The position numbers were made by a program, and so were the translations under genes. Shown piece after piece: positions 1 through 10,925 of a stretch of DNA of 10,925 nucleotides. Where the stretch lies: contig DIVM01000216.1 of NCBI GenBank assembly GCA_002435835.1, positions 1 to 10,925 on the forward strand, in the 5' to 3' direction. This stretch comes from Firmicutes bacterium UBA6132. Lineage in GTDB: Bacteria > Bacillota_A > Clostridia > Tissierellales > Sedimentibacteraceae. The notes beneath the pieces were generated by a model. That model saw nothing but the letters and a program-made list of their open reading frames with translations. It made no database searches and had not been told where the DNA came from. The stretch's first letter is position 1. Every line of letters begins with the position of its first letter.

Positions 1-437
1 CAGGAATAAATGACGGAGCAGCAGCCTTAATAATTATGAGCAAGGAAAAGGCTGATGAGCTTGGAATTAAGTATTTATGCGAAATTGCTGGATATGGCTC
101 TGCAGGAGTTGATCCAAAGGTTATGGGATTAGGACCTGTACCAGCAACACAAAAAGCATTGGCTATGGCAGGTTGGACTGTTGAAGATTTAGATTTGGTA
201 GAAGCTAATGAAGCTTTTGCTTCACAAGCAATTGCAGTAACTCGTGATTTAGGATTAAATCCTGAGATTACAAATGTTAATGGAGGAGCAATAGCACTCG
301 GTCATCCAATCGGAGCATCAGGTGCAAGAATTCTTGTTTCACTTATTTATGAAATGCAAAAGAGAGATGCTAAAAAAGGTCTTGCCACGTTGTGTATAGG
401 CGGCGGAATGGGAACTTCAATGTTAATTCAAAGATAA
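1..437 (+). CDS. Acetyl-CoA acetyltransferase (thiolase), 3' end only
   Basis: This is the C-terminal part of a biosynthetic-type thiolase, which condenses two acetyl-CoA to acetoacetyl-CoA (or cleaves 3-ketoacyl-CoA) in the cytosol. The frame is open from the window edge (codons from position 3) and ends at TAA 435-437. The visible first residues, [13 protein letters not shown], are the usual mid-protein thiolase motif, so the ATG at 36 is an internal Met and not the start. Downstream are NEAFASQ, the active-site His block [16 protein letters not shown], and the second catalytic Cys in CIGGGMG near the C-terminus. About 144 residues are seen; the family is usually about 390, so roughly two thirds of the gene lies upstream. 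hbd follows after 37 bp on the same strand, which points to an operon making 3-hydroxybutyryl-CoA. The family is certain; the exact chain-length preference is not readable. Confidence 0.96.
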
Positions 438-468
438 AAGATAAAAAATAAAAGATAAAAGATAGGAG
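434..468 (+). repeat. Five tandem 7-bp units between thiolase stop and hbd ribosome site
   Basis: Consecutive heptamers read ATAAAAG, ATAAAAA, ATAAAAG, ATAAAAG and ATAGGAG. The first unit contains the thiolase stop codon and the last unit supplies the AGGAG ribosome-binding site (464-468) for the ATG at 475. The array therefore fills the entire intercistronic gap. Confidence 0.9.
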
Positions 469-474
469 AAAAAA

Positions 475-1305
475 ATGAAGGTATATGTTTTAGGTTCAGG
501 AACTATGGGAACGGGAATTGTACAAACTTTTGCACAATCAGGTATCCAAGTTTTTATGAGAGAAAGAACACCTGGAAAAGGTATGAAGTTAATCAACAAG
601 GACTTGGATAGATTAGTTCAAAAAAATAAGATTACAGAACAAGATAAAGAAAAAATATTATCTTACATAACACCAACACAAAGCCTTGAAGATGCTAAGG
701 ATGCTGATTTAGTAATAGAAGCTGCTGTAGAAGATATTCAATTAAAGAAAGAAGTATTCGCTCAGCTTGATGAAATTTGTAATGCGAATACTATATTGTC
801 AACTAATTCTTCATCTCTTTCAATAACTGATATAGCAAGTGCTACAAAAAGACCTGAAAAGGTTATAGGAATGCATTTTTTTAATCCTGTTCCGGTAATG
901 AAATTAGTTGAAGTAATAAAAGGTATAGTAACTTCAGATGAGACTAAAGATTATATTGTGAACTTATCAAAAGAAATAGGAAAGACTCCTGTTGAAGTTG
1001 AAGAGGCTCCAGGATTTGTGGTAAATAGAGTGCTAATTCCTATGATTAATGAAGCAATCGGTATAATGGCAGAAGGTATTGCAAATCCACAGGATATTGA
1101 TACGGCAATGAAGCTAGGTGCTAATCATCCAATTGGGCCTTTAGCTTTAGCAGATTTGATAGGTAACGATGTGTGTTTGGCAATTATGAATGTATTATAT
1201 AGAGAATTTGGTGACCCTAAATACAGACCACATACATTGCTTATAAAAATGGTAAGAGCCAATTTATTAGGAAGAAAAACAGGCAAGGGTTTTTATCAAT
1301 ATTAA
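475..1305 (+). CDS. hbd: 3-hydroxybutyryl-CoA dehydrogenase
   Basis: The 276-residue cytosolic enzyme reduces acetoacetyl-CoA to (S)-3-hydroxybutyryl-CoA with NAD(P)H, the step after thiolase in clostridial butyrate formation. The Rossmann motif GSGTMG is at residues 7-12, with an acidic residue (E30) at the end of beta-strand 2 where NAD-dependent homologues carry Asp or Glu. The family signature around HFFNPVPVMKLVEV (134-147) gives catalytic H134 and its Glu partner E146. The C-terminal dimer domain starts near GFVVNR (180-185, N184) and ends GRKTGKGFYQY. Length fits the family (about 280). AGGAG sits 6 nt before the ATG. It closely resembles the Clostridium acetobutylicum Hbd sequence as remembered. 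It is the last gene of its operon; a long hairpin follows. Confidence 0.97.
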   Translation: MKVYVLGSGTMGTGIVQTFAQSGIQVFMRERTPGKGMKLINKDLDRLVQKNKITEQDKEKILSYITPTQSLEDAKDADLVIEAAVEDIQLKKEVFAQLDEICNANTILSTNSSSLSITDIASATKRPEKVIGMHFFNPVPVMKLVEVIKGIVTSDETKDYIVNLSKEIGKTPVEVEEAPGFVVNRVLIPMINEAIGIMAEGIANPQDIDTAMKLGANHPIGPLALADLIGNDVCLAIMNVLYREFGDPKYRPHTLLIKMVRANLLGRKTGKGFYQY

Positions 1306-1351
1306 GAGGTATATAAAAAAGGGTAGTCTCAAAATATATACTAAAAAATAG

Positions 1352-1411
1352 CAAAATAGCTTCAATATTTTTCTTTATAAGAAAGAAAATATTGAGGCTA
1401 TTTTGTTTTTT
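1352..1411. terminator. Long bidirectional hairpin terminator between convergent hbd and chemoreceptor genes
   Basis: Arms of about 21 bp (1352-1372 with 1385-1405, wobble pairs allowed) close a short loop near 1376-1380. A T-run follows on the plus strand (1401-1411), and the minus strand also has a U-rich tail from the A-run at 1343-1347. It lies between the hbd stop at 1305 and the minus-strand stop at 1498, so it can end transcription from both sides. Confidence 0.9.
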
Positions 1412-1497
1412 AAAATTTAGTAATAATAAATATTTTTAATATAGTTATGATTTGAGATTCAAGCAAAGATTTCTTGCATGTTAAAGTATGGAACTTT

Positions 1498-3516
1498 TTA
1501 ATCACATAAAAGTTTAAATTTTCTTGTTTCATCCTTTAACATAGCAGCTTGGGCTGACAGTTCCTCACTTGATGCCGAGCTTTCCTCTGCTGTTGCTGCA
1601 TTGTTTTGTATTATGGCAGAAATTTGTTCTATTCCCAGATTAATTTCGGAGATAGAGGACGTCTGTGCCTGTGAAGCACTATCTATTTCTACTATAATAT
1701 CTTTAACATTCTTAGTTTTAATTGATACTATTTCTAGTGATTTAGCTGTATTACGAGCTATTCCTGAACCTTCCTGAACTGATGAAATAGATTTTTCAAT
1801 TAAATTCACAGTATTTTTAGCTGCTTCTGCTGATTTTGCCGCCAGGTTTCGTACTTCATCAGCTACAACAGCAAATCCTTTACCTGCATTACCTGCGCGG
1901 GATGCCTCTATGGCAGCATTAAGAGCTAGTATATTTGTCTGGAAAGCTATTGCTTCAATTGCTTTTGTTATTTTGCTTATTTCATTTGATGTTATTTCAA
2001 TTTCATTCATTGCCAGTAGCATTTTTTTCATATAGTTGTTGCTCTCTTCTACCTCCAGTACAGTTTCATCAACATATTTGAAAGCGGTATATACGTTTTC
2101 CGCATTTTTATTGGCTGATTCATATATTTCATTGATGGATGCAGATAATTGCTCTATTGAGCTTGCTTGATGTGTAGCACCTGAAGATAAAACCTGGGCG
2201 CTGTCTGCTACCTGTGATGCTCCTGCATTTACCTGTTCAGCAGACAAATTGATAGCTGAAAGTGACTGGCTGAGGGACACTGAAATATCATTTAAAGCTT
2301 TTTTAATTGGAGAAAATTCATCAGCATAATCCTGATTCAGGGTAATGCACATGTCTCCTTTTGCAAATGTATTTAATGCTTCTGATATTTCAGTGATATA
2401 GTCAATGTATTTGCTTAATCTTACGACCGTTTTTTCAAAAGCATCTGCTACCTGTCCTATTTCATCACGGGACTGTATATCCATCTGAACATTTAAATTT
2501 CCATCAGCTATTTCATTTGCTATACCTCTGAGCTTTTTAAGAGGTTTTACAATACCTATGGCAATAATCAAAATCAATGCAATGATTATTACGATTGCAA
2601 TACCAAAAGAAATAAGAATTGCATTTCGGACAGAATTAAATGTCCTGTTGAATTCTTTATCAGGTAATCCTGTTGCAACTACCCATCCTGTATCCCCTAC
2701 ATTGGATACATATCCGTGTGCTTTCTCTGACTGAAACTGATATTCGATCTGACCAGATTCATTGTTTTCAATGGCATTTATAATATTATCCGACAGATCG
2801 GTCTCAGATATGCTTTTATTTATATACTCTTCGTTAGGATGGTATATAACCTGACCATTACTTGTAGTCAGAATATAGAAGCCAGTCTCTCCAAGCTTAT
2901 ATTCCTTCATTAAAAGTCCTATATTTTCGATTGAGAAATCTATTCCCACAACACCTAGAAACTCTTTTGAATTTTCTTTATATACAGGGCAAATAGCGCT
3001 TACAATTATATTTCCTGTTGCAGTATCTTGATATGGATTTGTAAGTACCACACTCTGATTTTCCATTACAGAAGCGTACCACGGTCTCTCCTTCATATTC
3101 CAGCCTTCTGAGAGCAAATAGCCATCTGATTGTGTCAGCTGGTTAGTATCTGCATCCGCTATCCATGATACTACTATGTTTTTAGGATCTGTTTCCTGTA
3201 CATTGATCATAGTTTTTTTTGCATTAGCAAAGCTGTCGACAGAAGTAATTATTTTTCCGGGAACTGTCTCCTCAAATACTTTTTCTATCTGACTATTTGT
3301 GGACATTTGCTCAGCAATTGATAAATGTTTAGTAAAGAACTCACTCACCTGATATGATGCAGATGCAGATTTAGATGTAAGTTCCTTTTGGGTTAAATCA
3401 CTTACTGAAATGCCAACTATTTGCAATATGAATACTGCCGTTAAGCAGAATGCTATAATAACTGGAACTCCAATGAATAAAAGAATTTTAGCTAATATAC
3501 TTTTTTTATGTACCAT
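1498..3516 (-). CDS. Methyl-accepting chemotaxis protein with dCache sensor
   Basis: A 672-residue transmembrane chemoreceptor that relays ligand binding to CheA/CheW. Order of parts: short cytoplasmic tip, membrane segment 1 (about 8-34), extracellular double-Cache domain (about 38-290), membrane segment 2 (about 298-323), HAMP (about 324-376), then the methylation and signalling helices. The hairpin tip spans roughly 520-560 (AFQTNILALNAAIEASRAG, then GKGFAVVADEVR). In the Cache domain R144-P-W146-Y147, Y162, D164 and D193 are spaced like the amine/carboxylate-binding residues of amino-acid-sensing dCache receptors such as PctA, which suggests an amino-acid ligand (inference). No C-terminal CheR-tethering pentapeptide is seen. 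AAAGGAGATG precedes the ATG. It has its own promoter and appears to be a single-gene transcript; no che genes are nearby. Confidence 0.97.
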   Translation of the reverse strand: MVHKKSILAKILLFIGVPVIIAFCLTAVFILQIVGISVSDLTQKELTSKSASASYQVSEFFTKHLSIAEQMSTNSQIEKVFEETVPGKIITSVDSFANAKKTMINVQETDPKNIVVSWIADADTNQLTQSDGYLLSEGWNMKERPWYASVMENQSVVLTNPYQDTATGNIIVSAICPVYKENSKEFLGVVGIDFSIENIGLLMKEYKLGETGFYILTTSNGQVIYHPNEEYINKSISETDLSDNIINAIENNESGQIEYQFQSEKAHGYVSNVGDTGWVVATGLPDKEFNRTFNSVRNAILISFGIAIVIIIALILIIAIGIVKPLKKLRGIANEIADGNLNVQMDIQSRDEIGQVADAFEKTVVRLSKYIDYITEISEALNTFAKGDMCITLNQDYADEFSPIKKALNDISVSLSQSLSAINLSAEQVNAGASQVADSAQVLSSGATHQASSIEQLSASINEIYESANKNAENVYTAFKYVDETVLEVEESNNYMKKMLLAMNEIEITSNEISKITKAIEAIAFQTNILALNAAIEASRAGNAGKGFAVVADEVRNLAAKSAEAAKNTVNLIEKSISSVQEGSGIARNTAKSLEIVSIKTKNVKDIIVEIDSASQAQTSSISEINLGIEQISAIIQNNAATAEESSASSEELSAQAAMLKDETRKFKLLCD

Positions 3517-3589
3517 AATTTCACATCTCCTTTAATTGTTATTTTTAATAAATTGAAAATTTAATTATAAGATCTTATCTTTCAGCTAA

Positions 3590-3617
3590 TTTATATGACA
3601 TCAATAACCTATGTCAA
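3590..3617 (-). promoter_or_regulatory. SigA-type promoter of the chemoreceptor gene with a dyad in the spacer
   Basis: Read on the minus strand: -35 TTGACA (3612-3617), 16-bp spacer, -10 TATAAA (3590-3595). An inverted repeat TGACAT-N9-ATGTCA (3596-3616) occupies the whole spacer and overlaps the -35. A perfect 12-bp palindrome ATAAGATCTTAT (3567-3578) lies just past the expected transcription start. Both could be operators. Confidence 0.7.
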
Positions 3618-3708
3618 TTTTAAAGCTTACAAGTATATCGTCATTTTAATAAAGTAATTTAGAGTTTTGATTTAAATAATATTGACCAATTAATACCATT
3701 TTAAGAAT

Positions 3709-3729
3709 AATATAACTATTAGTTATATT
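3709..3729. repeat. Perfect 10-bp inverted repeat, 1-nt centre
   Basis: AATATAACTA, one T, then TAGTTATATT. It is an uninterrupted dyad with only two G:C pairs, followed by GGCTTATTTTTT. It is more like a protein-binding dyad than a stable hairpin; no function is assigned. Confidence 0.6.
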
Positions 3730-3893
3730 GGCTTATTTTTTGCTAAGCAGATATACATTCTCTAAGAGAAGATGACAATTTTGTGGGTTATAGTTGAGTT
3801 GCTTTTAATTGGATCACTTCAAGATTATTTAAAAACTAAATTGCCTTGTACAAAATGATATTTGTAAGGGATGATAATTAAATATTTTAATAT

Positions 3894-3932
3894 AAAAAGG
3901 AACTTACTATGAGATATGGTAAGTTCTTTTTA
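3894..3932 (-). terminator. Hairpin terminator downstream of the NhaC-type transporter
   Basis: AAAAAGGAACTTAC (from 3894) pairs with GTAAGTTCTTTTT (from 3919) around a short loop. A/T runs on both sides allow use on either strand; the natural client is the minus-strand transporter ending at 4019. Confidence 0.75.
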
Positions 3933-4018
3933 TTAATTAATTTTTGTAGTGGTGAACTTTGAATTATAACATACTCCTTATACAAGTTTATTCACCTAAT
4001 TGATTATGTAATGTAATC

Positions 4019-5383
4019 TTATATTTTAGTTCGTAAAATACTATAAAGCATGCGCCTTCCACTATTATTTTTTCGCAACTTTAAATACAGCAGGTTGTAG
4101 ATTGGTAGAAGATATATATACATCAAATACGGCATACAGGTCACATCTGTTCCTAAAATTGTCATAGGAACAAGCAGTGCTGCGTTCCATGGAACTATTG
4201 CAGATACCATTATTGCCGTATTCTCAAGGTCAATTGCAGCACATGAATTATCAAGATCGTTATTTTTGTAAGCTTTCTTATTCAGCATATGTGTCAGCAT
4301 AACCGCAAAGGTCTGGCTGCATCCTAAGATGGATCCAAACAAGCTTGTGATTAATACATTTCTAAAAACCTTGTACCTCGAATCTGCTTTTGAGGTAGCA
4401 TTCTCAATAATGCTAAGCATCTTAGTCTCCTCCATTATTCCAGCAAAGGCAGATGAAAAGAGTACAATCAGTGATGTCTTGAGCATAGATATTATTCCTC
4501 CTCCTTTAATTATATAACTAAGAGGGCTTGAATCAGTAATGGTGAATCCAAATATTATAAATTTTATACATGATGCAATTGTCTGATGCTGAATAATTAT
4601 ACTGATTGCGAATGCCAAGATTATGCTCACAGCCATAGATATTTTTACATTCACCTTAAATATTGAAAAAATGATAATGACCAACGCCGGAACCAGTATG
4701 ATAAGATTAAGGTCGAATTTTTGAAGTATCTGACTGTTGATACTATTTGATGAACTTTGAAGTGGAAATGCATTGGAAAGTATAATATAAAAAACAACTG
4801 AAATCATAAAAGGAACTGAGCTTGTTTTAAACATATTTTTGATATTATCATATATATCGGTTTCGGTTAAAGAAGCTACAAGGCTGGCACTCGAAGAGAC
4901 TGGAGAACATCTATCTCCAAAATAGACACCAGCAATTATTGCTCCTGCTGTAGCTGATAGGTTGACACCACCACTTTTCGCGATAACCATCAATGATGCT
5001 CCAACAACACCTGAAGTTCCAATCGATGTGCCAATTAGGAATGACACAAGACAGCTGATTAAAAATGACGTCAAAATGAATAAGTTTGGTTTAATCAATT
5101 CTATTCCAAAGTACACTATAGCCGGAACAGTGCCTGAAGCCATCCAAGTAGGAATAAGGGCTCCTATCAGTATGAATATTTTTATCACTAAGACAGATTT
5201 TTTGCCTCCTCTGTATGCCATTTTTAATATGTCATTAGTTGCATACCCTCTTCTTAATGCAACTATAAAAAATAATATTATTCCCGCAGCTAAAGGATAG
5301 GCGAGAAATATTCCATTAAATACGCTCGATAGTAAGAGCAGAAATGTTATGATAAATGCCAATATAAGATCCAATATAATCAT
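4019..5383 (-). CDS. NhaC-family Na+/H+ antiporter-like membrane transporter
   Basis: A polytopic inner-membrane secondary transporter of 454 residues (456 if the upstream GTG codons are used), with about 10-12 hydrophobic segments. Family hallmarks are GTSIGTSGVVGASL near 120-133, AGAIIAGVYFGDRCSPVS near 149-165, GCSQTFAVMLTHML near 356-369 and the C-terminal ENTAIMVSAIVPWNAALLVP near 389-408. Members exchange Na+ for H+, or organic anions and amino acids for ions (NhaC, MleN); the substrate here is unknown. The start is ambiguous: GTG GTG ATG run together at 5389-5381 with no convincing ribosome site, so I chose the ATG. It is transcribed divergently from the LysR regulator at 5486, its likely controller. 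Confidence 0.9.
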   Translation of the reverse strand: MIILDLILAFIITFLLLLSSVFNGIFLAYPLAAGIILFFIVALRRGYATNDILKMAYRGGKKSVLVIKIFILIGALIPTWMASGTVPAIVYFGIELIKPNLFILTSFLISCLVSFLIGTSIGTSGVVGASLMVIAKSGGVNLSATAGAIIAGVYFGDRCSPVSSSASLVASLTETDIYDNIKNMFKTSSVPFMISVVFYIILSNAFPLQSSSNSINSQILQKFDLNLIILVPALVIIIFSIFKVNVKISMAVSIILAFAISIIIQHQTIASCIKFIIFGFTITDSSPLSYIIKGGGIISMLKTSLIVLFSSAFAGIMEETKMLSIIENATSKADSRYKVFRNVLITSLFGSILGCSQTFAVMLTHMLNKKAYKNNDLDNSCAAIDLENTAIMVSAIVPWNAALLVPMTILGTDVTCMPYLMYIYLLPIYNLLYLKLRKNNSGRRMLYSILRTKI

Positions 5384-5485
5384 CACCACATTAATTTTTA
5401 TATCATTATAGCAGAAAATAATATATAATAAAAATATCTAAAAACTATATAATATATATTTATTTATTATATATAGGGAGTCATT
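5384..5485. promoter_or_regulatory. Shared divergent control region of transporter and LysR regulator
   Basis: Extremely AT-rich 102 bp. TATAAT at 5448-5453 (plus) fits a -10 for the regulator. TATAAT at 5405-5410 read on the minus strand fits a -10 for the transporter, with only a poor -35 (TTTTAT), as expected of an activator-dependent promoter. An inverted repeat TATATAATA / TATTATATA (5446-5454 and 5465-5473) overlaps the regulator start region and could serve autoregulation. Confidence 0.55.
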
Positions 5486-6349
5486 ATGGACAACAGGCAA
5501 CTATATTATTTTCTTACCATAATCGAAGAGGGCAACATATCAAAGGCAGCCAAAAAGCTTCATTTGGCTCAGCCATACTTGAGTCAGATGCTTAAGTTGC
5601 TCGAAGGTGAATTAGGTGTAACCTTGATTGAAAGAACCACACGCCAGTTCTCTGTTACAGAAGCTGGCCAGAAGCTTTCATATAGGGCAAAGCAGATTCT
5701 TGATTTGTCAGAAGCAACAGTCAAGGAGATTAAGGATTTCAATAAAGGTATCAATGGGAAATTATCTATCGGATGTATATCCACTGCAATTGAAACTATA
5801 CTTATGAAAAAAATTTACACATTTCACAAAAAATACCCAAACATAGACTTTGAAATACTCCAGTACAGCACAGATGAAATATTGGAACTTTTAAAGAGGG
5901 GCATAATAGAGATTGGCATAATACGAAGTCCATTGAATTCAGATATTTTTGGATCTATATCATTGCCCGTTGAGCCTATGGTGGCGATATCAAGTAGTCA
6001 GATGAATTTAAATAGCAAGTGTAATAATGTAACCTTGAAAGAGCTTTCTCAAAAACCATTATTGGTTCATCGCAGATTTGAAAGGGATATAGCAGATTTA
6101 TTTCGAAGAAATGGTTTAGAGCCAAGGATCCTATGCAAAATAGAGGATACAAGACCGCTACTACTTTTTGCAGAACAGGGAATGGGCGTTGCCATTGTTC
6201 CCAGAGATTGGACAAATCTTATCAATGGATCAAATTTCAATTGCCATGAAATACGCGAAATGCACTTAGATACAGGAACTGCAATAGTTTGGCATAAAAA
6301 TCATTATTTAACTTTAGTAGCCAGAAATTTTTTAGAATGCTTGTCATAA
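5486..6349 (+). CDS. LysR-type transcriptional regulator
   Basis: A 287-residue DNA-binding regulator of usual family length. The N-terminal winged helix-turn-helix covers about 1-60 (MDNRQLYYFLTIIEEGNISK, then AAKKLHLAQPYLSQ as the recognition region and GVTLIERTTRQFSVTEAG as the wing). A linker helix follows, then the effector-binding periplasmic-binding-protein-like domain from about residue 90 (GKLSIGCIS) to the end. The hallmark GMGVAIVP lies at about 232-239. AGGGAG sits 5 nt before the ATG. Back-to-back placement with the NhaC-type gene is the classic LysR arrangement, so it probably activates that gene in response to the transported compound or a metabolite, and represses itself (inference). 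A strong terminator follows 10 nt after the stop. Confidence 0.95.
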   Translation: MDNRQLYYFLTIIEEGNISKAAKKLHLAQPYLSQMLKLLEGELGVTLIERTTRQFSVTEAGQKLSYRAKQILDLSEATVKEIKDFNKGINGKLSIGCISTAIETILMKKIYTFHKKYPNIDFEILQYSTDEILELLKRGIIEIGIIRSPLNSDIFGSISLPVEPMVAISSSQMNLNSKCNNVTLKELSQKPLLVHRRFERDIADLFRRNGLEPRILCKIEDTRPLLLFAEQGMGVAIVPRDWTNLINGSNFNCHEIREMHLDTGTAIVWHKNHYLTLVARNFLECLS

Positions 6350-6358
6350 AAGTGAAAA

Positions 6359-6398
6359 CCCCAACATCTGCCTTGAAATTCAAATGTTGGGTTTTTTT
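6359..6398 (+). terminator. Rho-independent terminator of the LysR gene
   Basis: CCCAACAT (6360-6367) pairs with ATGTTGGG (6384-6391), followed by seven T (6392-6398). It starts 10 nt after the LysR stop codon. Confidence 0.92.
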
Positions 6399-6534
6399 AA
6401 TATTGAGTTAAATTATATTATATAAGATAATATAAAACTACATAAAAAGATGGATTAACCTCCTCGTAATGGGTAGGTCATAAATTTTTAATCTTTTTAT
6501 AATTATTATTATACATAATACAAATTCAAAAATA
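6399..6534. other. Gene-free AT-rich spacer before the tRNA remnant
   Basis: No gene is supported. A GC-richer island, CCTCCTCGTAATGGGTAGG (6461-6479), stands out from the surrounding AT sequence. On the minus strand it could encode only an 8-codon peptide without a ribosome site. The end of the spacer carries ACAAATTCAAAA (6520-6531), part of a longer repeat shared with 9721-9770. Confidence 0.5.
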
Positions 6535-6562
6535 AAAAGCCTTGCAATAATTAAATTGCAAG
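6535..6562 (-). terminator. Terminator of the tRNA-Arg locus (minus strand)
   Basis: CTTGCAAT (6541-6548) and ATTGCAAG (6555-6562) form a perfect 8-bp stem with a 6-nt loop. On the minus strand it is followed by GCTTTTTATTTTT. It lies 11 nt past the tRNA 3' end, as expected for its native terminator. Confidence 0.8.
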
Positions 6563-6573
6563 ACTTTTGTTTA

Positions 6574-6618
6574 TGAACCATGAGGGACTCGAACCCCCGA
6601 CGCCTAGATTCGAAGTCT
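6574..6618 (-). tRNA. tRNA-Arg(TCG) 3' half, truncated; probable attachment site
   Basis: Read on the minus strand, this shows an anticodon loop CTTCGAA (anticodon TCG), the 3' anticodon stem TCTAG, a 5-nt variable loop, T-stem GGGGG/CCCTC enclosing TTCGAGT, acceptor strand ATGGTTC and discriminator A. No CCA is encoded. The 5' anticodon stem agrees for only three bases; beyond that there is no D-arm and no GAACCAT 5' acceptor strand, so this is a fragment and not a working tRNA. Such 3' fragments arise when an element carrying tRNA 3' homology integrates by a tyrosine recombinase. The retained terminator suggests this is the displaced original 3' end, with the element to its right. The intact copy is not in the window. 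Confidence 0.85.
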
Positions 6619-6841
6619 GTATATTCATGGTAAACACTTATATTATATAATATTATTTAGTTTTATTATGTGTCATTAAGCATTGATATTAAGCCATATA
6701 ATCTGAAATATAAAAAATAATGTGTTATATTATATTATGTAGTATTATTTAATGTTATTTATGTTGCAGACGCGTTGCAGATTTTAAATTTTTTCTGCAA
6801 CATTTTTAACATTGTAATTGCAATTGCTTCTTATATATTAT
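6619..6841. repeat. Repeat-rich segment next to the tRNA scar
   Basis: GTTGCAGA occurs twice in direct order (6763-6770 and 6774-6781) and once inverted as TCTGCAAC (6794-6801). Two AT-rich stretches resemble each other imperfectly (about 6637-6675 and 6723-6764). Such short arm-like repeats near an attachment core can be integrase arm sites, but that is inference. No gene is supported. Confidence 0.45.
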
Positions 6842-7030
6842 ATCATGGTTCAAGGATTTGTAAAGATTGTAAGTACTTAAATGATTAGAAAAATTATCAA
6901 AAGAATAATATGTTTTTACAGAATAAAATCTTTCATTATCCTTTCGATGACTGCGTTAAACTTTGCAATTATGCATAGTGGTAAACGGCATAATGATTTT
7001 GTGTTTAATACCAAGCTCAAAAAGAGCCTT
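6842..7030 (-). pseudogene. Decayed DDE (rve/IS3-IS481-like) transposase, C-terminal fragment
   Basis: A minus-strand frame of 63 codons reads KALFELGIKHKIIMPF, TTMHNCKV, stop, RSHRKDNERFYSV, then YYSFDNFSNHL. This matches the end of the rve-type catalytic domain of insertion-sequence transposases, whose usual text is LGIKHK.IRP.TPRHNGKVERSHRKDNE.FY. The catalytic Glu codon of the KVERSHR motif is a TAA stop (6956-6958), and the conserved Gly before it is Cys. No N-terminal part or terminal repeats are visible. It is a non-functional remnant, further supporting the mobile nature of the region. It continues in frame directly after the stop codon of the small gene at 7031-7279. The family is sure to the level of rve transposases; the exact IS group is not. 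Confidence 0.82.
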
Positions 7031-7279
7031 TTATGCATTTGAAAAAAATGAATCTTTCTCCCATCTGCTAATAAGCGTATATGCAATATCTTTACTTACT
7101 TCATCATAAATTTTTCTATCAAATTGCAATTCTAAAAAGTATTTGTTTTGTATCCAATTACTTAAATTTGATTCATATATATATGTGGTTTTATCTAAAT
7201 TGTCAGCTTCTTCTATTTTAATAAGCCTATTATAATTGTTACTTATAGTATCAAGCTCTGCATAATATCTCTCTTTCAT
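7031..7279 (-). CDS. Small hypothetical protein (82 residues), possibly truncated
   Basis: I do not recognise this protein. The start is the ATG at 7279, because AGGGGTG lies 6 nt before it. An upstream in-frame ATG at 7327 has no ribosome site and would translate through this one. The product is soluble, charged and probably helical, rich in Asn, Tyr and Glu/Asp, with W38 and W73 (NWIQNKYFLEL and LISRWEKDSFFSNA). No signal peptide or membrane span is seen. The last residues, FSNA and the TAA, run without a break into the transposase remnant in the same frame. The original C-terminus may therefore have been replaced when the insertion element decayed. It lies downstream of the Spo0E-like gene on the same strand. 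Moderate certainty that it is expressed. Confidence 0.5.
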   Translation of the reverse strand: MKERYYAELDTISNNYNRLIKIEEADNLDKTTYIYESNLSNWIQNKYFLELQFDRKIYDEVSKDIAYTLISRWEKDSFFSNA

Positions 7280-7357
7280 TACTACACCCCTAAAATTATG
7301 TATTTTATAACTTAGCTTCTTATTCATTACAAAAAATATTGAAGTAGCATTATAATT

Positions 7358-7657
7358 GTTCTCTAAAACACTATCATAAATATTTCTTATTACTTATTAG
7401 TTTTCATTTTCGTCTATGTATTTTATAATCAATTTGTCTAATTTTTGACTTGTTTCTATTGTATATTTATTTTTAATACCCAATTTTGAAATTTGAGTAT
7501 TTAAACTTTTTTTAACTCTTCTATTTCATTAGCTAATTTATTTTTTTGGTCTTTGCTAAAATTTACTTTTTTATTTTCTTCTTCCATTGTATCCTTAGTG
7601 TTTATAGATTCTACTAAGTAAATATAAAGCAATTAATAATTAAATGTTTTAGAGAAC
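7358..7657. repeat. 13-bp perfect inverted repeat bracketing the Spo0E-like gene
   Basis: GTTCTCTAAAACA (7358-7370) and TGTTTTAGAGAAC (7645-7657) enclose 274 bp, 300 bp overall, centred on the Spo0E-like gene. No convincing target-site duplication flanks them. It could be a miniature mobile cassette or chance in AT-rich DNA. Confidence 0.45.
7397..7587 (-). pseudogene. Spo0E-like small phosphatase gene with a homopolymer frameshift
   Basis: AAGGA lies 4 nt before the ATG at 7587. The first frame gives 28 codons (MEEENKKVNFSKDQ, then KNKLANEIEELKKV) and stops at 7501-7503. The break is a run of seven A on the minus strand (T7 at 7507-7513). With one more A the frame continues as SLNTQISKLGIKNKYT, then IETSQKLDKLIIKYIDENEN, to TAA at 7397-7399, about 63 residues. 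Family members dephosphorylate response regulators such as Spo0A~P through a conserved S-x-x-L-D motif on the second helix. Here SQKLDKLI matches, as does the first helix EIEELKK. It may be a true pseudogene, a sequencing error, or a phase-variable or slippage-decoded gene. Assignment to the Spo0E-like family is by motif and size. Confidence 0.68.
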
Positions 7658-7715
7658 TTTTATATTAATACCCATGTAAATAAAATATAAACACATTTTA
7701 AAACTTTTTATATTG

Positions 7716-7747
7716 TATAATTTATATCCATCGGATAAAAAATTATA
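7716..7747. repeat. Two-tier inverted repeat downstream of the diguanylate cyclase
   Basis: TATAATTT (7716-7723) pairs with AAATTATA (7740-7747), and inside it TATCC (7725-7729) pairs with GGATA (7733-7737) around ATC. No clear T-run follows on either strand. It may still act as the 3' hairpin of the minus-strand gene ending at 7810. Confidence 0.55.
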
Positions 7748-7809
7748 GGTTTTAATATAAATGTAGTTAATATACAGTATATACATGACACTCATTTAAG
7801 AACGAAATA

Positions 7810-9345
7810 CTATAGAAGATTTACAGTGTTTCTACCCTCTTCTTTTGATTTATACATTGCCATGTCAGCTCTTTTAATAACATCGTCAATAACTTCTTCG
7901 TTTTTTTCAAAATAAGAAAATCCAATAGAAATTGTTGCGTTAATTGTCGACTTACCTGATAAAATTTTTATTGATGCAACAGATAAGAGCAATTTTTGTC
8001 CAAAAACTAAAACATTTTCTTTATTCAAACCATAACAGATACAAACAAATTCATCGCCACCCCATCGAACCAGCTTATCCGTACTTCGTATGTTTTTATT
8101 GATCGTATTTACAACTTCCTTTAATATCTGATCGCCTACATCATGACCAAAAGTGTCGTTTATATTTTTGAAATTGTCAATATCAAACATCATAATGGCT
8201 GGATTTGTAATGTTCTTTTTAAACTCATTGAGTGATTTGATCAACTCATTTGTTCCGTATTTGCGTGTAAACGCGTTTGTTAGTATATCTTTATTATTTT
8301 CTTGCTCTATTTTACTTTTTTCTTTTTTAAAATACCAATTTTTCAATAACATTAAAAAACCCAAGCTTAAAAGTATGATAACTACAAGAAAAAATAAAAA
8401 CAAACTTATATACTTTTTAGTTATTTCATTACTTTTTTCATTAGTATTAACAATATACTGCTGTATATCATCCATGTGAATTCCCATTCCAATTATCCAG
8501 TCAAAGTCTTTATATAGCTTCATAAATGATAATTTTTCAGAAATATTATCATTGTCATACTCTTTAAAGTAATATTTTATAAAGAGTTCTCCATCTTTTT
8601 TAACACCCTCAAGTTCTTCTAAGTACGGTAAATTCCCTTTTATATCCATTATTTCTGTTGATAAATACATTCCTTCTGTTTCAGGAAGATTCGGATGTAC
8701 TCTTCTGATAGCATAATCTTTGCCGCCATTATAATTAACAACCTCATTGACCCATATATATGAATCATTATCAAATTTCAATTTTCTAATTTTTTCTGCA
8801 GTAATTACCTTTATTCTACTATCAATAAAATTTTGGCTAACTCCAATAAACCCAGAAATTTTCCCGTGATTTATTATTTTATAGAATGACATCAAGGGCT
8901 TTAAATTTTCTAATGTTAAATTAACGTCATTTTCGATAATATTTCCTGGATCATAAAGTATTTGATTACTGCTGTTATCCCATAAAAATACAGTCCAATA
9001 ATCCAAATAGGAATCTTTATTAAAATCCAAAGTAAATCTATCTATAAAATAATCAACAAATTCTTTGTCAGTTGAAAGTTTTTCTTCTAAAGCTAATGTA
9101 TCATATCTTCGAACAATATATTTTTTATATAATTCAGCTTCATATTCTCTGGTCAATTCAATTTCGAAGATAAGATTATCAACAGTATTTTTTAAAAATG
9201 ATTTTTTTATATTTAGTATTGCATTTTGCGTTTCATCTTGATATATTTCACCTATTTTTTTGTATGTATATAAATAAAAGATACTAATTAATAAACAAAT
9301 AACAATAATTAGTGAAGTTGTAACAACTCTATCTTTTTTATTCAA
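7810..9345 (-). CDS. Diguanylate cyclase with extracellular Cache domain
   Basis: A 511-residue membrane enzyme making cyclic di-GMP from two GTP. Order: membrane segment 1 (about 9-27); extracellular sensor (about 30-305) whose second half matches single-Cache/Cache_2 domains (YIWVNEV near 196, HPNLPETEGMYLSTEIMDIK near 217-236, KLSFMKLYKDFDWIIGMGIH near 271-290); membrane segment 2 (about 312-334); GGDEF domain (about 345-511). The active-site loop is intact GGDEF (429-433). The metal-binding Asp in FDIDNFKNIND is D388, and an inhibitory RxxD site (R420-D423) stands five residues before GGDEF, so activity and product inhibition are expected. The start codon is TTG at 9345: GAGGTG lies 8 nt upstream and an in-frame TGA sits just before, leaving no better start. 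No EAL partner is nearby. Confidence 0.95.
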   Translation of the reverse strand: MNKKDRVVTTSLIIVICLLISIFYLYTYKKIGEIYQDETQNAILNIKKSFLKNTVDNLIFEIELTREYEAELYKKYIVRRYDTLALEEKLSTDKEFVDYFIDRFTLDFNKDSYLDYWTVFLWDNSSNQILYDPGNIIENDVNLTLENLKPLMSFYKIINHGKISGFIGVSQNFIDSRIKVITAEKIRKLKFDNDSYIWVNEVVNYNGGKDYAIRRVHPNLPETEGMYLSTEIMDIKGNLPYLEELEGVKKDGELFIKYYFKEYDNDNISEKLSFMKLYKDFDWIIGMGIHMDDIQQYIVNTNEKSNEITKKYISLFLFFLVVIILLSLGFLMLLKNWYFKKEKSKIEQENNKDILTNAFTRKYGTNELIKSLNEFKKNITNPAIMMFDIDNFKNINDTFGHDVGDQILKEVVNTINKNIRSTDKLVRWGGDEFVCICYGLNKENVLVFGQKLLLSVASIKILSGKSTINATISIGFSYFEKNEEVIDDVIKRADMAMYKSKEEGRNTVNLL

Positions 9346-9974
9346 AAAATTTACACCTCACATTCATTTAAGACATAATAATCCTTAAACAGCTACAGCA
9401 ATATTCACAAGGCCTTAGTTGGCATATATATTCTAATTATCAGATTGAAATGGAAAATTTAAAAGCTGATATTAAACATATACTGACACCTGTACAAATA
9501 AATATATAATACTCCTAATAATATAATAACAGCAATACATTAGTTAGTTTGATTGGATTACTAAGTTTTAGTGCTAAATTATACTACTTTATGCGCTATT
9601 ATCACATTTTACACTTAAGCCTTGAAATAATTAATTTGTAAAATTTTACTACATTTTTTTGTAAAATACAACACAATTGCTATAATACTTATTTATTCTT
9701 CAATGTTTTATACATAGTAAACAAATTCAAAATTAGTAAAATATTTAAAAAATTAAAAGCCTTGCAATAAATTGTAACGGGGTTTACTTTGGTAAAGTTA
9801 AAGGAACTTAAATAAGCAATACACTATTTAGTTTAGTAAATTCCAACTTGTAGGGATGACTAAGCGAATATAATTTCGAGTCGTGGTTATTACGTATTTT
9901 TAATCTATAGAGTCACAACAGTAGAATTAGATGCAATTGGACATCCTTAATAAATTATATAAGAGGAGAGCTTG
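9346..9974. other. 629-bp gene-poor region between diguanylate cyclase and small gene
   Basis: No complete gene is supported. A 46-codon stretch free of stops on the plus strand (9372-9509) has protein-like composition but no start. Five copies of GTAAAAT or its complement lie between 9606 and 9742. A TATAAT at 9681-9686 with a weak -35 (TTGTAA, 9659-9664) may be a plus-strand promoter. A copy of the tRNA-terminator flank lies at 9721-9770. From 9776 to 9960 I see no clear structure except small dyads such as CGAATATAATTTCG (9865-9878). Confidence 0.5.
9721..9770. repeat. Second copy of the tRNA-Arg downstream flank
   Basis: ACAAATTCAAAA (9721-9732) and AAAAGCCTTGCAATAA (9755-9770) repeat, in the same order and orientation, the blocks at 6520-6531 and 6535-6550. 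The spacing is larger here by about 19 bp. After 9770 only a weak hairpin half (ATTGTAA) resembles the terminator, and no tRNA sequence follows. Confidence 0.6.
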
Positions 9975-10157
9975 ATGATGGAAACGGTTATATTGGTTAG
10001 AAGTAATGGAAAAATGATAGGTGCAAAAGAAGATGAAGGTTTAGATATCGCAAATAGGCATTTAGAAGAAGGCTGGAAAGTTAAGCATATATATGCATGT
10101 GCTTTAGGCGAAAGCATAAACGTAGGACAGGCATATATAAACAGCACCAGATTATAA
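9975..10157 (+). CDS. Small hypothetical protein (60 residues) with a GW-x-V motif
   Basis: Not recognised as a named family. GAGGAG (9963-9968) is followed after 6 nt by ATG at 9975; a second ATG at 9978 and an in-frame TTG at 9972 are alternatives. The product starts with a hydrophobic strand (METVILVRSNG), continues with a helix (GLDIANRHLEEGWKVKHIYA) and ends in a likely strand (INVGQAYINSTRL). The pattern helix, GW-x-V, strand recalls tiny phage or plasmid proteins of DUF4177-like layout, where a helix ending LxxEGWxVxxI packs on a sheet; this is a resemblance of form only. There is no signal peptide or membrane span. The AAA+ gene follows 74 bp later on the same strand but has its own promoter. 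Confidence 0.7.
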   Translation: MMETVILVRSNGKMIGAKEDEGLDIANRHLEEGWKVKHIYACALGESINVGQAYINSTRL

Positions 10158-10170
10158 AAACATATAATAA

Positions 10171-10199
10171 TTTGTCCCTAATGTTGACTTTTTGTCCCT
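10171..10199 (+). promoter_or_regulatory. Direct repeat TTTGTCCCT x2, likely operator
   Basis: TTTGTCCCT occurs at 10171-10179 and 10191-10199, a 20-bp period, close to two helical turns. The copies flank the -35 hexamer, one just upstream and one inside the spacer. This is a fitting place for a repressor binding as a tandem on one DNA face. Confidence 0.6.
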
Positions 10200-10212
10200 G
10201 GCGTGATATAAT
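10184..10212 (+). promoter_or_regulatory. Near-consensus SigA promoter of the AAA+ ATPase gene
   Basis: -35 TTGACT (10184-10189), exactly 17 bp, -10 TATAAT (10207-10212). The start of transcription would fall near 10219, giving a very short leader holding the GGGGTG ribosome site (10220-10225) and the ATG at 10232. Confidence 0.85.
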
Positions 10213-10231
10213 GCATTTCGGGGTGAATGAA

Positions 10232-10925
10232 ATGAAAAAAAAGAACGTTTTGAACCTAATAAAATATTATTCTGAAAAAAATGATGCTGCTTTTAGAAAT
10301 GAAGCATACGAAATAGCAAGATATTTTGATGAAATAAATAATTACCAACTTTCTGAGTATATTATGGCACTTTTGTCAGACACAAACACTTTCTCTCCAC
10401 AAATGGATGAGGCTACACATATGTTTTTTAAACGGGTAGATGTTAACACTGATTCACTTCCCTTACCGGATAGTATAAAAGATAGTGTTTTAGGAATTGT
10501 AAATGCAATTGGTCATAATGCAGGAGTTAACAAGTTTCTATTTGAAGGACCTCCGGGGACTGGTAAAACAGAGACTGCAAAGCAAATAGCACGCATACTT
10601 GAAAGAGAATTATTTGTAGTTGATTTTGATTTAGTTATTGATAGCAAGCTTGGTCAAACATCTAAAAATATATCAAGTCTTTTCGATGAAATTCGCAATG
10701 TATCACATCCAGAAAAAGTTGTAGTTTTGTTTGATGAGATAGATGCATTAGCTATTGATAGAATTAACTCAAATGATTTGCGTGAAATGGGAAGAGCTAC
10801 ATCTTCAGTATTAAAGGGATTGGATAGTTTGAATGATAATGTAGTGCTAATTGCAACTACTAATCTTTATAAATCTTTTGATAAAGCTTTAATAAGAAGA
10901 TTTGATTCTGTGATAGATTTCAGCA
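10232..10925 (+). CDS. Small AAA+ ATPase, 5' part; candidate IetA-type defence ATPase
   Basis: The frame is open to the window end; 231 codons are seen. ATG 10232 has GGGGTG 6 nt upstream (an in-frame GTG at 10223 overlaps that site and is less likely). The N-terminal region (1-80) is helical and acidic, with FRNEAYEIARYFDEI resembling the FRxxAxxIAxxE helix of small AAA+ proteins paired with subtilisin-like proteases. The AAA+ core shows Walker A GPPGTGKT (106-113), pore-loop region SKLGQTSKNISSLFDEI (138-154), Walker B VVVLFDEID (163-171), sensor 1 ATTN (208-211) and arginine-finger region RRFDSVIDF (222-230). All catalytic residues are present, so it should hydrolyse ATP in a ring in the cytosol. 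The pairing with a subtilase (IetAS) is known for the family but the downstream gene is outside the window; a cell-housekeeping AAA+ remains possible. Confidence 0.85.
   Translation, partial: MKKKNVLNLIKYYSEKNDAAFRNEAYEIARYFDEINNYQLSEYIMALLSDTNTFSPQMDEATHMFFKRVDVNTDSLPLPDSIKDSVLGIVNAIGHNAGVNKFLFEGPPGTGKTETAKQIARILERELFVVDFDLVIDSKLGQTSKNISSLFDEIRNVSHPEKVVVLFDEIDALAIDRINSNDLREMGRATSSVLKGLDSLNDNVVLIATTNLYKSFDKALIRRFDSVIDFS

Follow-up and report, generated by a model that had tools for sequence, protein, structure and literature searches.

An IetAS-like gene pair of a distinct clade, its conserved two-site operator and probable repression of the operon by its own ATPase

A stretch of 10,925 nucleotides (nt) from Firmicutes bacterium UBA6132 (contig DIVM01000216.1, positions 1 to 10,925, forward strand), here called the window, contains at its 3′ end a promoter and the beginning of a gene for an AAA+ ATPase related to IetA (Table 1). 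This end of the window probably carries the promoter and the first part of the ietA gene from a two-gene operon of the IetAS-like kind, encoding an ATPase and a protease. IetA probably acts at this promoter as the repressor of its own operon, in the manner of type II antitoxins or DnaA. The sequence ends inside the first gene, before the C-terminal helix-turn-helix (HTH) and the protease gene; accordingly, the rest of the ATPase, including the HTH, and the second gene were judged from relatives. The reference set consists of the loci of 80 relatives of the main clade (labels L), some of them near-identical (L038–L042), and promoter counts with n = 81 include these loci and the window.

The open reading frame (ORF) of the ATPase begins with ATG and remains open to the window end, as seen in the ORF list and the translation. 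In the 80 relatives the gene has about 345 codons, and the window ends about 114 codons before their stop codon. The AAA domain occupies residues 103–230 of the fragment (Pfam AAA, E = 9.6e-26). The translation contains the Walker A motif GPPGTGKT, the Walker B motif LFDEID, TTN and the arginine-finger region RRFD. All residues of Walker A except residue 107 are invariant in 46 aligned relatives, as are D168, E169 and D171 of Walker B, and RRFD is present in all 80 relatives. The AAA+ core with its motifs, noted in a preliminary description of this DNA, is therefore borne out by Pfam and by these residues, in a frame that is itself incomplete at the window end. The helical N-terminal region noted there was also found, in the structure model of the relative L001, with helices predicted at residues 3–14, 18–34 and 38–48.

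The ATPase belongs to a Vps4/PAN/FtsH-like clade of AAA+ proteins. IetA, the assignment proposed earlier, is the top match among defence models (PADLOC PDLC02196, E = 1.7e-39 for the window fragment and 1.7e-42 for L001), with 144 bits versus 70 bits for TRIP13. The NCBIfam model IteA gives 115 bits for the fragment and 122 bits for full-length L001 versus a cut-off of 510, and IteS gives 140–141 bits in two of two partner proteins versus a cut-off of 900, in agreement with the suggestion of a diverged variant.

A full-length partner of at least 736 residues is encoded next to the ATPase in 76 of the 80 relatives; three of the other loci are interrupted by contig ends, and L014 has a short ORF. 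The motifs of the S8 family (Asp, His and GTSxx[AS]P) were found in 75 of the 76 full-length partners, L072 being without GTSxx[AS]P as written. In all three close relatives analyzed, the downstream protein is an S8 subtilase (PADLOC IetS, E = 2e-58 to 2e-61; Pfam Peptidase_S8, E = 4e-31 or better). Asp276, His308, Ser483 and N407 are invariant in 48 of 48 aligned proteases. The downstream subtilase with an Asp-His-Ser triad, expected in the preliminary description, is thus what the relatives carry, and a downstream gene other than a protease, named there as the contrary result, did not occur among them. From about residue 184, the model of IetS fits a subtilisin with propeptide (3whi_B spans model residues 184–542, a comparison that hardly tests residues before 259), and the partner is predicted to be a subtilisin-like protease with a propeptide-like N-terminal part. 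No HTH-like unit was visible by eye in the predicted secondary structure of IetS. The reading frames of the ATPase and the protease overlap in 34 of the 76 main-clade loci, the same short offset being the most common (21 loci), which suggests translational coupling of the two genes in the main clade.

By sequence, the two genes form a module resembling IetAS and belonging to a clade of its own. Like IetAS, it comprises an AAA+ ATPase followed by an S8 subtilase with Asp, His and Ser, and the best PADLOC matches are IetA and IetS. Unlike IetAS, the main clade scores far below the cut-offs of NCBIfam NF042959/NF042956 and forms a separate clade with a long branch; moreover, the HTH and the phased operator described below are absent from seven tail-less plasmid IetAs (six alpha-proteobacterial and one from Rhodococcus). 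Because of the scores below the cut-offs, it was not filed as an equivalog of NCBI IteA/IteS. IetAS was reportedly named as an anti-phage system in an earlier paper, and the pair described here may have the same function. FtsH-sized proteins score as high as the main clade on NF042959, presumed FtsH proteins of 600–700 residues reaching about 129–135 bits, so that the gene might simply encode a housekeeping AAA+ ATPase unrelated to defense. This explanation is highly improbable in view of the IetS-like partner, the preference for IetA over TRIP13, the patchy distribution across labelled phyla and the finding of relatives on a plasmid of Carnobacterium and among IMG/VR contigs.

The region upstream of the ATPase gene contains two copies of TGTCCC, representing half-sites of a putative operator. 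The promoter scan of the window gave 9 promoter-like sites versus 9.7 expected in shuffled sequences and therefore proves nothing alone, while the TGTCCC pair was found once in the window and never in 200 shuffles. Of the repressible promoter in the preliminary description, the part that holds is this pair, and it is predicted to be a conserved two-site operator; the promoter boxes alone are no better than chance. Upon scanning periods of 17–23, TGTCCC pairs with no more than one mismatch in all were found in 71 of the 81 promoters, including 59 with both copies exact. The pattern is TGTCCC-N14/15-TGTCCC, the best pair having a period of 20 (48 promoters) or 21 (23 promoters) and no other. As a control, the remaining sequence of these loci (1,911,174 bases, counting both strands) contained 8 pairs, one of them exact, or 0.0008 per 200 base pairs (bp). 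Among the ten promoters without the operator, those of L015, L036, L053 and L068 have two mismatches and that of L045 three, only 56 bp of upstream DNA are available for L080, and L060, L062, L067 and L071 have no TGTCCC pair. In a motif-free test on 80 promoters, leaving out L080, 45 contained repeated 6-mers at lag 20 and 24 at lag 21, versus 2.6 and 2.7 expected in shuffles.

The half-sites extend to TGTCCCAA across 64 promoters, a set that is non-redundant within each period class and was picked for having the operator. The −35 box is less conserved, and a gap of 4–7 nt separates it from half-site 1 in 51 of the 54 promoters scored, the period being constant at 20 or 21. The spacer between the −35 and −10 boxes is 17 bp in 45 of the 50 scored (spacers of 15–19 scanned); therefore, one site is located just 5′ of the −35 box, and the spacer contains the other. 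Allowing a single mismatch, the operator occurs in 12 of the 13 labelled phyla, many of the labels coming from metagenome bins; the exception is a single Methanobacteriota locus, L045. The exact operator string of the window had no matches in IMG/VR, and the plasmid search by DNA returned seven records, all below 80% identity.

Twenty genomes of these loci contain 23 exact pairs, 14 of which are located at this ATPase and 9 elsewhere, the reversed pattern giving 13. Six of the 20 genomes have the ATPase and no exact pair. The string TGTCCCAA-N(2-6)-TTGA-N(3-7)-TGTCCC was found three times in 398 Bacillota genomes, always ahead of this ATPase (reversed control, 2), two of these genomes being already in the set and one new (G434, L229). 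No third gene recurred near the operon among 616 flanking ORFs compared within 4 kb (blastp, E ≤ 1e-8; contigs often short). The most common flanking family, resolvase-like by eye, was found at 6 of the 80 loci, and a recurrent third gene as regulator was rejected.

An HTH motif is present at the C-terminus of all 78 full-length ATPases, the other two of the 80 being short, and the tail consensus GFTVREIEILTGxSKSQVSRELKE was found in 78 of 80. Beyond the AAA lid, three short helices at residues 315–320, 325–332 and 336–343 have the layout of an HTH in a structure model (mean predicted local distance difference test score 84), and R326, L331, S337 and R341 of the tail are invariant in 46 aligned sequences. 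Pfam matches of the L001 tail are weak (MarR_2, E = 0.057; HTH_7, E = 0.12). These features suggest that the ATPase carries its own predicted DNA-binding C-terminal HTH. The recognition helices of the main clade are mostly KS[QS][VI][SA]R and accompany TGTCCC. A branch consisting of L043, L060, L062, L067 and L071 has a different recognition helix, ..KSTISRGLNN, and in the promoters of the last four the TGTCCC pair is absent and the −35 box is overlain by TGTCAATA..TATTGACA, an inverted repeat. The relative on the Carnobacterium plasmid, L081, is of the main type with the tail and the operator, and the operator was also found in L091, L093, L094 and L096 among the five viral-contig relatives tested.

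Outside the main clade, 51 distinct IetA-like ATPases from genome, plasmid and phage sequences were compared. They were obtained by searching 299 Bacillota genomes with the IteA model and 113 genomes with an HTH-tailed IetA as query, and from eight plasmid stretches and one phage stretch. Searches around two IetA clades (3 and 4 genomes) gave a match in the query genome alone. Duplicates, the FtsH-sized L192–L194 and the loci L176, L178, L189, L191, L220, L221 and L224, where no ATPase frame or start was found, were dropped. Among the 51, no long downstream frame is present in L177 and L204, and that of L169 is cut. By eye, from the last 60 residues, 22 tails were labelled HTH-like and 28 proteins as lacking the HTH; L165, whose tail is uncertain, was left out of these counts. 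Of ten tails compared with Pfam, eight (L001 and seven of nine others) have HTH support, with best E from 2e-5 to 0.06.

Exact 7-mer direct repeats at lags 10, 20 or 21 were found in 13 of the 22 promoters of tailed proteins versus none of the 28 promoters of tail-less ones (p = 1.4e-6), lag 10 having been picked after inspection. Restricting the test to lags 20 and 21, set in advance on the basis of the main clade, gives 7 of 22 versus 0 of 28 (p = 0.0017); the remaining lag sets gave no p below 0.19. By inspection, several copies of RTAAC(G) at about 21 bp are present in L166–L168, L170–L172 and L201, AAAACGT at 21 bp in L169, a TGTACGA-like repeat at 10 bp, or one helical turn, in L173, L174, L199, L202, L204 and L205, pairs of TTCGAT in L180, L198 and the phage locus L089, and AAAACGTACA at 20 bp in L200. 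By sequence, the promoter repeats are thus clade-specific, and HTH and repeats occur jointly across clades. In the clade with the 10-bp repeat, some repeats lie close to the start codon. The phage locus L089 (Paenibacillus phage Yyerffej, 3638–7050) contains genes of an HTH-tailed IetA-like ATPase and a peptidase beside amidase and holin genes, with the TTCGAT repeats in the ATPase promoter.

In a tree constructed without the tail from 67 sequences (16 of the 80 main-clade sequences included) and containing no housekeeping outgroup, the main clade is on one long branch, 21 of the 22 tailed proteins fall into three supported clades, and 27 of the 28 tail-less ones group together with weaker support (86/69). 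Since the tailed sequences cluster in few clades, the independent cases are about four clades rather than 22 sequences.

The same observations bear on other explanations of the tail and of the repeats. A separate regulator, encoded by the host or by the element, could bind the repeats, the HTH of IetA having another role; separate repressors acting at direct repeats are known in other defense systems, for example RptR, according to the excerpt of PMC12255303. Such a regulator is unlikely, since no regulator gene recurs nearby, a host-specific factor hardly fits an operator that spans 12 labelled phyla, and the operator type tracks the HTH type. The tail could also resemble an HTH in appearance only and serve to dock the ATPase ring onto the protease, like the C-terminal tails of proteasomal ATPases. 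This is distinctly unlikely: tail-less IetAs also have S8 partners, annotated beside six of seven tail-less plasmid loci, and the HTH layout, the four invariant tail residues and the co-occurrence of tail and promoter repeats also argue against it. Docking and DNA-binding roles of the tail could coexist.

A number of observations weigh against self-repression by the HTH of IetA. The HTH and the protease gene are outside the window and both are borrowed from relatives. Pfam support for the HTH is weak in L001, only one Pfam tail match exceeds its curated cut-off, no HTH was given for L166 and L171 of the RTAACG clade, and the tail labels of the 51 non-main IetAs were assigned by eye. Weak matches to a winged-HTH model occur in 2 of 10 tail-less proteins, and the same model matches 6 of 57 tails in a joint scan (best E = 5.5e-4; members not named). 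Besides the lag chosen after inspection, 6-mers at lags 20 and 21 were found in 9 of 22 promoters of tailed versus 5 of 28 of tail-less proteins (p = 0.07), and the independent units are the main clade and three HTH-tailed clades rather than the sequences. The lag test gave no repeat for L085 despite its tail, the viral relative L095 has the HTH and no operator within 120 bp, L043 shares the changed recognition helix yet retains a one-mismatch pair further upstream, and tail-less IetAs show that the module can work without the tail. The survey of flanking genes could overlook a fast-evolving regulator. Searches around two IetA clades (3 and 4 genomes) gave a match in the query genome alone.

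Self-repression is the new part of this account and, as a sequence pattern, it is well supported. AAA+ proteins assemble head to tail, and for this reason direct repeats rather than palindromes fit IetA. ATPase protomers, stacked head to tail, would bind the head-to-tail TGTCCC(AA) repeats two helical turns apart, and IetA bound across the −35 box and the −35/−10 spacer would exclude RNA polymerase, which would keep the amount of the toxic or defensive pair low. Depletion or engagement of the ATPase, by a phage trigger, in a complex with the protease or through loss of the element, would open the promoter, and more of the pair would be made. The operator could instead be an activator site, or the HTH of IetA could sense invading DNA, and activators do exist among AAA+ proteins with a C-terminal HTH, namely, bacterial enhancer-binding proteins. 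Neither role is probable here: the promoter is of the sigma-70 type with the 17-bp spacer, a protein bound at sites adjoining the −35 box and within the spacer would block polymerase, and exact sites elsewhere in the 20 genomes are at background. For HTH-tailed IetAs in general, the chances are about even that they are self-repressors with exchangeable HTHs matched to clade-specific operators, phased by one or two helical turns, and with repeats read directly by the AAA+ oligomer; the promoter would therefore open as a direct consequence of a phage trigger or the protease engaging the ATPase.

Among known systems, autoregulation of type II toxin–antitoxin pairs is close in logic; type II antitoxins are usually small, whereas here the antitoxin would be an AAA+ ATPase. 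DnaA is an AAA+ protein with a C-terminal HTH and an autorepressor. It shares with IetA the AAA+ core, the C-terminal HTH and several sites at its own promoter, and differs in belonging to another AAA+ clade; the IetA described here has a short three-helix HTH and a partner protease. Bacterial enhancer-binding proteins act at sigma-54 promoters, while boxes of the sigma-70 type were found here, no sigma-54-specific scan having been made. Two toxin–antitoxin pairs, IetA-IetS on pTiC58 and SgiA-SgiT on Salmonella Genomic Island 1 (SGI1), were compared from the literature. In SgiAT, the ATPase gene is likewise first and the protease gene second, the protease being the toxin and the ATPase the antitoxin (PMC5006074). 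Because SgiAT acts as a toxin–antitoxin pair, an autorepressing antitoxin would be a familiar logic in an unfamiliar protein. The sgiAT promoter is described as strong and, in Salmonella, as not SOS-induced, and autorepression is not mentioned in the excerpt of PMC9927553. RptR, the repressor of a restriction-modification/DarTG island, also acts at direct repeats over a defense promoter; unlike IetA, it is a small separate homodimer that binds TAGCTA (PMC12255303). No autoregulation of IetA was recognised in the literature searched, which is not a claim of its absence from print.

The rest of the window is represented by genes upstream of the operator. An ORF of 60 codons, preceded by a likely ribosome-binding site, ends shortly before the operator; it has 74 homologues, one of them annotated as DUF4177 domain-containing, and no link between it and the operon was seen. 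It is preceded by a stretch of about 620 bp where no ORF is listed, which looks AT-rich by eye and contains a 20-nt direct repeat that may be due to chance, and by a gene for a diguanylate cyclase (GGDEF) that also has a Cache sensor domain. The remaining upstream genes are ordinary chromosomal content. The tRNA-bounded accessory region of the preliminary description was not confirmed: no tRNA was found by ARAGORN across the 10.9-kb window, and no Rfam match reached the gathering threshold.

Table 1. Features of the window, with the promoter and ATPase gene first and the upstream region last.
Feature	Position	Strand	Basis
Putative operator half-site 1, TGTCCC, directly 5′ of the −35 box	10173..10178	+	Pattern count, conserved in relatives
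−35 box, TTGACT	10184..10189	+	Promoter scan; the 5-nt offset after half-site 1 is the commonest in relatives
Putative operator half-site 2, TGTCCC, within the −35/−10 spacer, period 20 to half-site 1	10193..10198	+	Pattern count, conserved in relatives
−10 box, TATAAT, spacer 17	10207..10212	+	Promoter scan
Likely ribosome-binding site, GGGGTG, 6 nt ahead of the start codon	10220..10225	+	Read from sequence
IetA-like AAA+ ATPase, first 231 of about 345 residues, truncated by the window end	10232..10925	+	ORF, Pfam, PADLOC
Walker A, GPPGTGKT, residues 106–113	10547..10570	+	Read from translation
Walker B, VVVLFDEID, residues 163–171	10718..10744	+	Read from translation
RRFD, arginine-finger region, residues 222–225	10895..10906	+	Read from translation
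60-codon ORF	9975..10154	+	
Region without listed ORF	9346..9971		
20-nt direct repeat, two copies, 90%	9531..9550 and 9815..9834		
GGDEF protein, TTG start as listed	7810..9345	−	
Genes for thiolase-like protein (by eye), 3-hydroxyacyl-CoA dehydrogenase, methyl-accepting chemotaxis protein (MCP) receptor, Na+/H+ antiporter-family protein and LysR regulator	3..6349		

Little is known about how modules for defense and plasmid stability stay silent while remaining ready to act. The regulators described in PMC12255303, among them BrxR/CapW, CapR and RptR, are separate proteins, as are the C proteins. Self-repression by the ATPase, if true, would be a new mode of control for phage-defense and plasmid-stability systems of this type. 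With a motor protein as the apparent repressor, trigger-coupled expression could be tested directly, and the promoter could provide a reporter for activators of IetAS. The operator string finds members of the family from DNA alone. The HTH also divides IetA into lineages with and without a tail, the main clade lying far below the present NCBI IteA/IteS cut-offs.
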